Part shown: one piece after another, positions 28,099 through 44,000 of the stretch
Position numbering within the stretch: position 1 is the first letter of the stretch
Layout: each line of letters begins with the position of its first letter
IMG/VR virus record: IMGVR_UViG_3300025545_000003
Coordinates: 42,831-106,830 of that record
Source: a virus
Reading direction: 5' to 3' (one strand)
Length of the DNA stretch: 64,000 nucleotides
Program-made: the position numbers and the translations under genes
Notes under the pieces: model-generated
The model's database searches: none
Told to the model about the DNA's origin: nothing
Seen by the model: only the letters and a program-made list of their open reading frames with translations

Positions 28099-28149
28099 TG
28101 CGACCGGGGGGAGTCGAACCCCCACGCCTCAAAGGCACCGGATTCTAAG
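28099..28149 (-). pseudogene. 3' half of a broken tRNA-Leu (TAG loop)
   Basis: It begins inside an anticodon loop (CUUAGAA, i.e. UAG) and continues with stem strand UCCGG, a Leu-type variable arm, T-arm GGGGG-UUCGACU-CCCCC and acceptor strand CGGUCGC with A. The acceptor matches the fragment at 28780-28786 exactly. It starts right after the intact tRNA-Leu(TAG). Confidence 0.85.
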
Positions 28150-28229
28150 TGGCTGAGGTGGGAGTCGAACCCACACGCCCTAAGCGCCCGCCTCTAAAAC
28201 GGGTGCGTCTACCGTTCCGCCACTCAGCC
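28150..28229 (-). tRNA. tRNA-Leu (anticodon TAG)
   Basis: Acceptor GGCUGAG/CUCAGCC, D-arm with GGUAGAC, anticodon stem CCCGU/GCGGG with loop UUUAGAG, variable arm, T-arm GUGGG-UUCGACU-CCCAC. Its first six bases also encode the last codon and stop of the HNH gene. Same anticodon as the split tRNA around it. Confidence 0.93.
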
Positions 28230-28724
28230 TTTTTCTTGTTTGGTCACGGAGGTCAACCCTTTGCTATTACACCACCCAGGTTGTTGGGAGTGGCAGTTAG
28301 GGCACAGGAATCGTAAGTTTTCAGGGCGGTTGTCTAACCAGTCTCGGTTGATGTGGTCCACCTGTAGCATGAGGGGTTTCCCGACCCACACTCCCTCGAT
28401 CCCACAAGATTCGCACGCATAGGGCCGCCCACTGTCAAGGAGAGCCCTCCGTAAGCGGTACGCTGCGGTACGCCTCCCTGTGTCCTTCTTTGACAGGGTA
28501 GTTAGCCACGGAGTCTTTCCCGGGCCTCCCTTATGGGCTGTTCCCTTGTTGGATCCTTGACCGTGGAAATGGACTGTGTCGAGTCCGTATTCCCGTACCT
28601 TACGGGTGATGTGCGTTTGTGTCCCGCCCGCCTGTTTCACCCCCAAATCTCGAAGCACGCCCGCCATGGAAGTGTTCTGTTGAACAAGTGGGGCTAGGAT
28701 CTCTTTTGTGTAACGTCGTCCCAT
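28224..28724 (-). CDS. HNH homing endonuclease inside a split tRNA-Leu
   Basis: 166 residues from the ATG at 28724 (the frame is open upstream, ribosome site weak). The N-terminal 60 residues look like a helix-turn-helix of the kind found in homing enzymes (Y-T-K-E-I-L-A-P-L, M-A-G-V-L-R-D-L-G-V). The C-terminal HNH domain shows C-E-S-C-G-I-E, L-Q-V-D-H-I-N-R-D-W, N-R-P-E-N-L-R-F-L-C-P-N-C-H-S-Q. The stop lies in the first bases of tRNA-Leu(TAG). The two halves of another tRNA-Leu with the same anticodon lie on either side of this HNH/tRNA pair. Its target is therefore most likely the anticodon region of a tRNA-Leu gene. Confidence 0.88.
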   Translation of the reverse strand: MGRRYTKEILAPLVQQNTSMAGVLRDLGVKQAGGTQTHITRKVREYGLDTVHFHGQGSNKGTAHKGGPGKTPWLTTLSKKDTGRRTAAYRLRRALLDSGRPYACESCGIEGVWVGKPLMLQVDHINRDWLDNRPENLRFLCPNCHSQQPGWCNSKGLTSVTKQEKG

Positions 28725-28754
28725 ACACAGCTTACGGTATAGGCTAGCAACCGG

Positions 28755-28786
28755 AACCGGCGTGTCTACCGTTTCACCACGGTCGC
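28755..28786 (-). pseudogene. 5' half of the broken tRNA-Leu
   Basis: GCGACCG acceptor strand, a Leu-type D-arm (GGUAGAC) and anticodon stem strand CCGG followed by UU, then foreign sequence. It completes the 3' half at 28099-28149. Confidence 0.8.
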
Positions 28787-28866: not shown

Positions 28867-29502
28867 TCACCCGCTCTTGGCCCAACCCCGATGCCGAGAG
28901 CGTTGCCCTGAAAAGAGCTTCTGCATTCCTTGGCGTGTAAGGCCGTGACGTTGGCAGAACAGATTGAGGGACGGGGTCACTTCGTGTTCAGCCCCGTCAG
29001 GAGAACGGACTTTGGGGTAGGGCTGCTTCTTCTTAGTGCGGCTGATCGCCGCCTTTTCCGCTTCCGTTGGGGAAGCCTTCCGACCACCCGATCCCACAGC
29101 GTTCTTATTGCCCCGCTGCAAAAGTGACAGGGCTTGCTTCGTTTCTTCTGTATGCTTGTAACCCAGGCTGTTGCCTGCTTCTGGGAGGATGTTGTACTTC
29201 TTGGCTTTCGGGGTCTTGTCCAACCACTCCTGTTCCTTCTCCAAGAGCTTGTCGTGGGCCGCCTGAACAAGCACAAAGAAGCAAATGTCCTCTTCACCCC
29301 TCTTGGCAAAGGCTCGTTGTAAGGGGGTGTTATGGTGGGTGCCTTTTCGAAGAAGCCTCCCATGTGCTGAGAACCTCTTGTAGAGATCCACTGCGGACCC
29401 GATGTAGAGCTTCCCCGAAGCCCTACTTCTGATGGCATAGACACCGCTCTTACCGTGTAGCGCAGAATAAGGGGTACCTTTCATGGAAGGGTCCAATTTC
29501 AT
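28867..29502 (-). CDS. GIY-YIG homing endonuclease
   Basis: 211 residues. The catalytic domain has S-G-V-Y-A-I-R-S, G-K-L-Y-I-G-S-A near residue 32-38 (the GIY..YIG pair), R-F-S-A-H and E-x-E-W-L-D-K. A NUMOD3-like segment follows (Y-K-H-T-E-E-T-K-Q, N-K-N-A-V-G), and a helix-turn-helix near the C-terminus (F-C-Q-R-H-G-L-T-R-Q-G-M), as in phage homing enzymes of the SegB/I-TevI type. It lies between tRNA-Leu(CAA) and the broken tRNA-Leu. A second ATG at 29484 is possible; neither start has a strong ribosome site. Confidence 0.9.
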   Translation of the reverse strand: MKLDPSMKGTPYSALHGKSGVYAIRSRASGKLYIGSAVDLYKRFSAHGRLLRKGTHHNTPLQRAFAKRGEEDICFFVLVQAAHDKLLEKEQEWLDKTPKAKKYNILPEAGNSLGYKHTEETKQALSLLQRGNKNAVGSGGRKASPTEAEKAAISRTKKKQPYPKVRSPDGAEHEVTPSLNLFCQRHGLTRQGMQKLFSGQRSRHRGWAKSG

Positions 29503-30413: not shown

Positions 30414-30485
30414 CAGAGGTAGTGGGAATCGAACCCACCCGACGGTCGGTTTTGGAGACCAACCCGCTTACCCAGAGCCACCTCT
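30414..30485 (-). tRNA. tRNA-Trp (anticodon CCA)
   Basis: Acceptor AGAGGUG/UACCUCU, anticodon stem UUGGU/ACCGA with loop CUCCAAA, T-arm GUGGG-UUCGAUU-CCCAC, discriminator G as usual for Trp. The D-arm (GCU/AGC) is short. Confidence 0.88.
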
Positions 30486-30493
30486 ACAAGAAT

Positions 30494-31111: not shown

Positions 31112-31197
31112 TGGATGATCAAGGAATCGAACCTTGCTGCCGCGTCAGCGGACCGGGGTTACAGCCCAGCGCAAGCACCAGCTTGACCGTATCATCC
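31112..31197 (-). tRNA. tRNA-Tyr (anticodon GTA), third copy
   Basis: Acceptor GGAUGAU/AUCAUCC, anticodon stem CUGGG/CCCGG with loop CUGUAAC, long variable arm, T-arm CAAGG-UUCGAUU-CCUUG. The D-arm is unusual (CAAG/CUUG). Confidence 0.85.
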
Positions 31198-41013: not shown

Positions 41014-44000
41014 GTGACAGCGACAGATCAGATCCTCCGGCGGGCGGTTGAAGAAGCCGTTGACCTGGAGAAAGAACTCAAGAAAGCGGAGTCCCTGGTC
41101 CCTCAGTCCGTGTGGCTGAAGCTCCGCAAGGCGTTTACCCCCAGGGGTTTGCCGTTCTTCGAGTTCTACATCCTCCTCAAGAGGATCGAGATGGGCGAAG
41201 ATGTCCCGGACGACATCCGCAGGATGTTCATGCGGGCCGCCAACCGGCTCCTTCAGATCACCTCCCCCGTAGACGGACGCAACGTCTCTCCGGCCATCGC
41301 CAATCAGATCGCTGAGATCCGCCCGGAGATGAACATGCTCCTCGGGCGGCTCCTAATGGGCCGGACAGAGGACAACACGACCTGGCGCAAGATCACGGAG
41401 TTGTTCGTCCCGCTGTTCGTCGCCGTGGCACGGGACAAAGAGGTCTACATCAAGGCCCGCCCCTACGGCCCGAGGCGTTGGGGGATCATCCGCAGGATGA
41501 CAGGGAAGCAGGAGAGCGTAGAGAAGCTGCGGGACAACGATCCCGAAGCCTACGCCCTAACCAAAAAGTACAATGCCACGCTGGCCGAGATCGATGAGGG
41601 CGTCAAAGTACTCATCACCCGTCAGGGCCTGGAACCTGAGACGGGCTTCATCATGGGCCGCCCCGTCCAGTACGGGATCAACCAGGAGACTGGCGAGAAG
41701 CTCATATTCGACCGGGATGGCGACGTCCTGACTCAGGATGAGTATGTCACCAAGCGCCGGGAGAACGCAGAGGCCCGCAAGAAGATGGCGCTCATCCCCA
41801 CCCGCACGGAGGTCCCTGTTCGGGATCTCCTCCGGTTGGACCCCAACGACACTGACCAGCTTCTGGGTGAGATGGAGTGGGTGTCCCTTACAGATGACAA
41901 GGCCAAACAGGGACGTCTAACCCGCATCTTCCCGGTCAAGCAGAAGCCCACCTTCATCGTGGACGAGGACGGTGACACAGAGGCTCAGTACCACCCGGTC
42001 ATCGTGTCCGGGCGGTTCAAGGGCGTCTACCTCGACGACATGGTGAACTCACAGGGCCGCCTCATTGAAGGCACGGCCTACACGTACAGCGCCACCACGG
42101 GGCACGGCGGTAAGGTCCCCGTCCGCATCGATCCCGCTGACAGGGAGCCCTACGTGACTGTGGCCGACGTGACCACGGTGCGGACGTTCAAAGGCCGCAA
42201 GCTCCGCCAGAAGTCACAGAAGCTCTTCTTGAAGGTGCCCGGGTCCAAGGACTACACGGTGCTCAGGAACGCCCTCAAGGAACTGGCCTGCAACGTGGGC
42301 CGCAAGCGAGGGTGCATCCCAAGCATCACCCACGAGAAGGTGGAGGGCAGCCGTGCGGCAGCCTTCTACCTCGACCCCAAGGACTTCGGCGTCGTCATGG
42401 AGACCCTCCAAGGGATGTCGCTGTCAGCGTCCGCCCTGGAACTGGTCAAGTCCTACTACAAGGACCTCTCCAACGCAGAGGCGGCCACGGCGGAGGATAA
42501 CCTTACCAATTACACTGCGGGCAACCTTGGCGGCTTCGTGACCCGCAAGACGGACAGGGAGACGGGCCTCATCAAGCCCTTCGACCTGAACGTGATCCAG
42601 AAGCAGGCACTGGCCTGGATGGACGCCAACGGCGGGAACGGGGTTCTGGCACCGGAGACGGGCGTGGGTAAGACCCTCATCGCCATCGCAGGGATGCAGA
42701 AGCTCATCCGGGACGGGCTGGCCGACGAGGATGCCTCCTACACCCGGCCCGACGGCAAAGAGATCCAGACTAACGGACGGTTCCTCTTCGTGTGCCCGCC
42801 TGCCCTCAAGGGCAACCTCCCGAAAGAGATCCGGGCGTTCATCTCGGACTCCAAGGAACTCCGGGCACGGGTAGACATCATCTCGTACTCAGAGTTCTCC
42901 GGGTCGTCCAAGACAGGCAAGCCGCCCTCCCACATCGCTAAGTACTGGAAGCGTCGTCGGTGGAACACGGCCCTCTACGTGGCCATCTACTTCGACGAGG
43001 CCCACAAGATGCGGAACAGGGAGGCAGGCGCTGCGTCGGCAGCCCTGGACCTGTGGCACCCCCGCAAGATCTGCCTGACCGCCAGCCCTATGGACAAGCG
43101 CCCCATGGACGCCTACGTCCTGACAGCGATCACGAACAACACGCCCCTGAACGGCCCCTCCATTGAGGCCAAGGACAACCGCAAGGAGATGCGGCGGTTC
43201 AAGGAGCGGTTCTGTGAGACCATCGGTGGCCGCATCGTTGGGGTGAAGACCGACCCCCTCGTCCGCAGGGACCTGCACACATGGGTAAAGCGGAACATCT
43301 ACTACGCCGATAAGCGGAACACAGGGGACGAGCTACCCCCCCTCCAGGCTGAGAACATGGTCGCCGTGATGCCGCCCCAGGTGGAAGACGCCTACAGGGC
43401 GGTCACCGACCAGTTCGCCTACATGATGAAAGGGCTCGCCACCAGGTTCAAAGACAGGGAGAAAGCGGGGATCTCAGGCCGCCATCCCGACGTAGAGCGC
43501 ATCTTCGGCAAGGCGTTCAAGCCCGTCGTCAAGCTGCTCAACGACCTGGCGAACCACCCCGAGATCGCCCTGACGGACATCGCCCACATGATGCGGACGG
43601 AGACGCTCCCCTACCCGGACAAGTTGGGGGACCCGATCCCGCTCCCGCACCAGTTCAAGAGGGCACTCAAGGTCTGGGCTACCAGGTTCTCCCCGGAGGA
43701 GTTGGAGGCGGAGGCCGAACACATCCAGAGTCCGAAGCTCCTGGTGGCCGAAGAGGTCATCCGGGACAAGGTCGATGCCACGGACGGAGCCAGCCGTGCC
43801 CTCCTGTTCACGGACGACACCAGGCTCATCTGGTCGGCGGCCCGTCACATGGCGAAGAAGATCACCGGCTGGCACGCTGTAGCCCTCAAAGACGAGATCC
43901 ACTTCATGGACGGGGACGCCCCTATCCAGAAGATCACGTTTGAGATGCCGAGGGACCTCCTGGCCAAGATGAAGCCGGAGAAGCGTGACCAGGTACTCGC

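Follow-up and report, generated by a model that had tools for sequence, protein, structure and literature searches.

Organization of the split tRNA-Leu locus

The window analysed here is a 64,000-nt stretch of viral DNA (positions 42,831 to 106,830 of IMG/VR record IMGVR_UViG_3300025545_000003). On its minus strand lies an interrupted tRNA-Leu(UAG) gene, in which the 5' half is followed by an HNH gene, an intact tRNA-Leu(UAG) and finally the 3' half. This order had been proposed in a sequence-only reading and is confirmed by direct reading together with tRNA and ORF calls. The features of the locus are as follows.

28757..28786, minus strand: 5' half of the split tRNA-Leu(UAG), positions 1-30, from the acceptor GCGACCG to the anticodon stem CCGG
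28725..28756, minus strand: leader from the 5' half to the HNH start codon, 32 nt, with no room for an intron core
28224..28724, minus strand: HNH endonuclease gene, 166 aa (P0001); phrog_10822, Pfam HNH
28150..28229, minus strand: intact tRNA-Leu(UAG), the presumed replacement (rescue) tRNA; called by ARAGORN, Rfam 53.7 bits
28099..28150, minus strand: 3' half of the split tRNA-Leu(UAG), from position 31 to the discriminator base

By direct reading, the 5' half (28786-28757, GCGACCGTGGTGAAACGGTAGACACGCCGG) has the form GCGACCG..CACGCCGG, and the 3' half (28150-28099) reads ACTTAGAATCCGGTG...CCGGTCGCA. The latter matches the tRNA-Leu profile with an E value of 1.5e-6, the match beginning at the anticodon loop. 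The intact tRNA uses A28150 as its discriminator base, and the split tRNA uses it as position 31. Because this base is common to both tRNAs, the split tRNA is complete with no base missing, and the break falls between positions 30 and 31. Joining 28786-28757 to 28150-28099 gives 82 nt that are scored as a tRNA-Leu(tag) in which all stems are paired, which bears out the earlier claim that the halves share one acceptor stem. The ends first given for the halves need a small correction: the 5' half ends at 28757 rather than 28755, an error of 2 nt, and the 3' half is better begun at 28150 than at 28149; the original join (28755/28149) yields a distorted anticodon arm. The stop codon of the HNH gene does lie within the intact tRNA as claimed, the TGA being located 4-6 nt inside 28229-28150, such that the two genes overlap by 6 nt.

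A chance join of the halves is ruled out, as none of 3000 random joins of same-size pieces of the window gave a tRNA in ARAGORN. The identical structure is present in two more IMG/VR contigs of the same phage (L005 at 100% and L006 at 99.97% over 10.5 kb), which excludes an assembly error in a single contig. No second Leu(UAG) tRNA was found in the 106.8-kb record, which is possibly incomplete, making the intact copy the only one detected there; about 30 more tRNAs lie in the record outside the window. Over its whole length the record encodes a tmRNA, a ribonucleotide reductase and a GroEL-like chaperonin in addition to two tRNA arrays with approximately 54 genes. A gene for a GIY-YIG homing endonuclease, which has a NUMOD3 motif, occupies 28867-29502 on the minus strand, immediately upstream of the split tRNA, so that HNH and GIY-YIG homing enzymes are neighbours within one tRNA array. 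Two further tRNA-like genes on the minus strand (30414-30486 and 31113-31197) are matched by Rfam and missed by ARAGORN, and the first of these can be read as a tRNA-Trp (CCA) whose 5' side is shortened.

The HNH protein and its family

P0001 matches phrog_10822 (E = 4.9e-48) and Pfam HNH (E = 3.6e-7), and a test for a GIY-YIG domain returned the HNH match and no GIY-YIG match. In an alignment of 15 relatives, the residues C104, C107, H124, N136, C141, C144 and H145 are invariant. A search of the PDB gave weak matches only.

The relatives of P0001 are found in tRNA clusters, and in most of the loci read they stand beside tRNA-Leu genes. The viral set comprises 72 distinct loci, 58 of which have an adjacent tRNA; 47 of these 58 adjoin a Leu tRNA, compared with 25.5 expected from within-locus permutation. 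Among 74 distinct bacterial loci, mostly from Actinobacteria, 52 have a tRNA-Leu(TAG) at most 100 nt downstream of the HNH gene. Both sets were picked by similarity to P0001, and the counts therefore describe the P0001 clade and not all HNH genes. The 3' end of the HNH gene often overlaps the tRNA across the family loci. The sequence-only reading had treated the arrangement as an oddity of one phage; with the same HNH family also residing in bacterial chromosomes, that description is too narrow. More distant family members in Rhodococcus phage Francesca (L043) and at L012, L014 and L118 abut Gly, Val and Tyr tRNAs, which suggests target switching.

Other split genes and their break points

Use of the tRNA-Leu profile revealed orphan 5' halves directly upstream of the HNH gene in further loci. 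The plan of the window recurs in L068, where a 5' half is followed by an HNH gene overlapping an intact tRNA-Leu(CAG) and then by the 3' acceptor of the split gene, CTCGTGC-A. The downstream tRNA-Leu(GAG) of L088 has mismatches between its own 5' and 3' strands, whereas the orphan 5' acceptor GGTCTCG forms a perfect pairing with that 3' strand, indicating that this tRNA is a chimera of cassette and recipient. In L070 the HNH gene sits between two halves with no replacement adjoining, and another Leu(UAG) tRNA is nearby. In L204 (Anaerolineales) the HNH stop codon falls on the TAG anticodon, with a 5' remnant upstream. The window is the cleanest case of the family, as both halves survive and no base is lost.

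The break points lie at 30/31 in the window, at about 32 in L068, at about 33/34 in EFDG1, L066, L070 and L095, at 34/35 in L133, at 35/36 in L112 and at 36/37 in L088, with outlying scar ends at about 12, 25, 39, 44 and 48. The claim that insertion occurs at the anticodon loop is supported by these data, since the orphan 5' halves that precede related HNH genes have their ends largely within positions 30-36. About 9 of the 15 scar ends fall within this 7-nt stretch (binomial 1.6e-6, a guide only, because the stretch was chosen after seeing the data, the profile-based ends are accurate to 1-2 bases and short remnants would escape detection). The scar ends vary and so do not fix the cut site. 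In most bacterial loci, a 5' scar was undetectable.

Allelic states in isolated phages

Searches for an unsplit version of the gene in the window phage's own lineage found none. The exact 5'-half pattern matched the same phage only; the anticodon-arm pattern retrieved two other phages (L029 and L030), whose arm GCCGGACTTAGAATCCGG illustrates how the unsplit arm reads; and a search with a neighbouring gene retrieved two distant relatives (L033 and L034), the latter with a different tRNA-Leu(UAG). The unsplit gene anticipated in relatives was thus not found in this lineage, but empty alleles exist in other phage groups.

In Schiekvirus, Enterococcus phage Ben (L045) carries the empty allele, an unsplit tRNA-Leu(UAG) referred to here as A. 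Phage EFDG1 (L040) is the same as Ben through GTGGCACT (U33), beyond which it carries the HNH cassette followed by another tRNA-Leu(UAG), here called allele B; after B, the sequence rejoins that of Ben at the T arm. EFGrKN (L051) has the cassette of EFDG1 but retains A into the variable arm, and Bop (L046) has B without the HNH gene. In Ounavirinae, the empty site is represented by KMM2 (L048), with an A allele different from that of Schiekvirus. All seven HNH+ Ounavirinae read (L035, L036 and L215-L219) have the first 12 nt of the KMM2 A allele (TGGGAGATTGAC) before the HNH gene, followed by B, and Sf18 and Moogle (L047 and L052) have B alone with no HNH gene. The same three states, A, HNH-B and B, are therefore present in two unrelated phage groups. 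Isolates with the various allele states grow on laboratory E. coli, among them Escherichia phage mistaenkt, an HNH+ phage with a homologue of P0001, and phage dune, which has allele A. Of 254 records matched by the HNH+ query, 10 cover most of it. In separate counts, about 155 records hold A-like sequences at 90% identity or more and about 93 hold B-like sequences at 95% or more, HNH+ phages being among the latter. The scars suggest the order A to HNH-B to B. In Otagovirus, HNH+ phiPsa347 and HNH- phiPsa374 and phiPsa381 have different tRNA-Leu(UAG) genes, and no scar was seen in this comparison.

Presence or absence of the element at one site in close relatives is thus observed in Schiekvirus and Ounavirinae, as well as in Nonomuraea (see below). 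The existence of empty, invaded and HNH-less alleles in other phages agrees with the original proposal of a cassette that splits its target and supplies a substitute isoacceptor.

Probable replacement of tRNA-Leu(UAG) in Nonomuraea

Among 55 Nonomuraea genomes, 33 have the canonical tRNA-Leu(UAG), 21 have a 74-nt short-armed one (19 identified by one pattern search, and G014 and G041 by another), and one has neither. The canonical tRNA and an HNH-linked short-armed tRNA-Leu(UAG) occur together in none of the 55. Both forms occupy one chromosomal locus, as L150 (HNH gene and short tRNA) and L233 (canonical tRNA, no HNH gene) align on both flanks. The two alleles exclude one another at this locus, and in the window phage the carried tRNA is the sole Leu(UAG) found in the record. 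At the sequence level, both observations are in line with a putative replacement of the target gene by the carried copy. Homing genes usually pass through a life cycle in which they are intact, then decayed, then lost. The short-tRNA Nonomuraea genomes include about 12 with an intact HNH gene, several in which it has decayed (L231, L235, L241 and L243) and three that lack it (L245-L247).

HNH matches were also obtained in 13 Nonomuraea genomes with the canonical tRNA, and these are mostly longer proteins of another clade. Genes of this second clade (approximately 330-385 aa, with repeated N-terminal parts; e.g., in G005, G013, G024, G025 and G052) face the canonical tRNA-Leu(UAG) in convergent orientation, and the short distance between the two is uniform. 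The short-armed tRNA-Leu(UAG), of about 74-77 nt and with a D arm of TAGCCCAA..GG.AGAGG or similar, is present at L150, L226-L247, L040, L046 and L047, and it is what the element carries in several phages and actinobacteria. A short-armed replacement is not a general rule, as the window and many other loci carry a long-armed one.

Alternative explanations

The strongest competing explanation is an ordinary SegB-like free-standing homing gene beside B, wherein B is a co-converted flanking marker and not a rescue copy, and the remnants of A are crossover scars of a nearby cut. Free-standing endonucleases are known to co-convert flanking DNA (PMC2988022, PMC13096335), the scar ends are variable, and B without the HNH gene is common, all of which such a gene would accommodate. 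It leaves unexplained, however, the clustering of scars at the anticodon loop, the frequent overlap of the HNH 3' end with the tRNA, and the window and L068, in which the carried tRNA lies inside the split one. This explanation is consequently considered unlikely.

Far less probable still is a group I intron, or an intervening sequence spliced in some other way, with the halves joined in RNA. The insertion position is the classical intron position, and the same HNH family is associated with apparent group I introns in tRNA-Leu(UAA) at L108, L014 and L130, where the exon breaks are in the anticodon and the core motifs AGACTA/TAGTCC are present; L120 and L134 likewise have apparent group I introns in tRNA-Leu(UAA) with this family. 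In the window, however, the HNH gene and the tRNA leave 32 nt alone outside them, and AGACTA/TAGTCC are absent from the whole 606-nt insert. Rfam reports no intron in the window, which is weak evidence as it also missed L108, L014 and L130; size and the missing motifs are the better argument against an intron. Based on the exon breaks of these three loci, the intron-containing and intron-less forms seem to target the same spot.

An accidental rearrangement of a tRNA array, in which the HNH gene has no role, would be in keeping with how often tRNA arrays recombine and with the two arrays and roughly 54 tRNAs of this record, but it is largely refuted by recurrence: unrelated phages and bacteria share the arrangement, with members of a single HNH family, and Leu tRNAs exceed the within-locus expectation about twofold. 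Site-specific recombination of a prophage- or island-type integrative element into a tRNA gene that is restored in the process is hardly credible, for although such elements use tRNA-Leu anticodon loops as attB (e.g., cluster J mycobacteriophages, PMC3706429), the 606-nt insert holds the HNH gene and one tRNA only, with no integrase gene, and the 3' half of the intact tRNA differs from the displaced 3' half, so that there is no att repeat.

Proposed mechanism

The preferred reading, to which we assign a probability of roughly three in four, is that the locus holds a homing element made up of a free-standing HNH gene and a replacement tRNA, with tRNA-Leu genes as its target near the anticodon loop. 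The sequences themselves show that the element has entered tRNA-Leu, that the recipient allele has been lost, that a tRNA is carried along, and that the arrangement recurs and decays. What we infer is that the HNH protein cleaves DNA, as well as where it does so, that the carried tRNA is resistant, and that repair uses the donor. First, the HNH enzyme would cut or nick the tRNA-Leu gene of the recipient, either within the anticodon loop or close to it. Repair with donor DNA would then bring in the HNH gene and, with it, a functional and divergent tRNA-Leu that has the same anticodon; in an alternative outcome, the HNH gene would be accompanied by a new 5' half, rebuilding a tRNA on the recipient's 3' half. 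The recipient tRNA would remain as a scar, seen as both halves in the window and as a 5' piece elsewhere, and the carried tRNA would maintain Leu decoding. Being divergent, the carried tRNA probably escapes cutting. Alleles A and B differ in the stems and the D arm, and the CTTAGAA loop is often common to both. Several carried tRNAs retain this loop, and resistance based on the loop alone is rejected for that reason. Finally, the HNH gene would decay or be lost, leaving the carried tRNA in place.

Comparison with known systems and implications

SegB of phage T4, a homing endonuclease of the GIY-YIG type encoded by a free-standing gene in the tRNA region (Brok-Volchanskaya 2008, in PMC2988022; Chihara 2026, PMC13096335), is the nearest known system in behaviour, and the tRNA-fMet intron endonuclease is the nearest in target. 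Like the present element, it belongs to a phage tRNA cluster, and it favours inheritance of nearby tRNA genes. In contrast to the HNH element described here, SegB is a GIY-YIG enzyme, lies between tRNA-Arg and tRNA-Ile and has an intergenic target (PMC2988022, Table 1), and it is not known to be accompanied by a split or replacement tRNA. The tRNA-fMet intron endonuclease is, to judge from a title in the reference list of PMC3984707, likewise aimed at the anticodon region of a tRNA; its intron splices itself out, whereas the present element has no intron core and replaces the tRNA instead. The T4 Mob proteins (PMC2988022) and the HNH enzymes of cluster J mycobacteriophages (PMC3706429) are also free-standing HNH enzymes that show presence/absence polymorphism at one site, with insertions that are precise or messy. 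These genes differ from the present element in lying between or beside protein genes, with no carried target substitute described (PMC2988022, PMC3706429). No description of an HNH element with a replacement tRNA was found in the open-licence literature.

Synthetic cleave-and-rescue and home-and-rescue drives are engineered, Cas9-based systems in eukaryotes. They combine a nuclease with a divergent working copy of the gene that is broken, and the present element may be viewed as resembling a home-and-rescue drive. The balance of the sequence comparisons tips slightly toward a natural drive of this kind. In such a drive, the anticodon loop of tRNA-Leu genes would be the point of attack of the HNH family, even where the gene is the only one for Leu(UAG) that a bacterium has, and a divergent, often short-armed tRNA-Leu would permanently replace the canonical one. 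The family would move between phage and chromosome, and a needed tRNA gene would have been swapped in many bacterial species.

Homing genes usually avoid harm by splicing, as introns and inteins do, or by an intergenic position. The element described here appears to represent a third solution, in which the target is broken and a divergent working copy is carried along, following the logic of engineered rescue drives. This might account both for some phage tRNA genes moving in company with nuclease genes and for the replacement of the canonical tRNA-Leu(UAG) in bacterial chromosomes by an unusual short-armed form.
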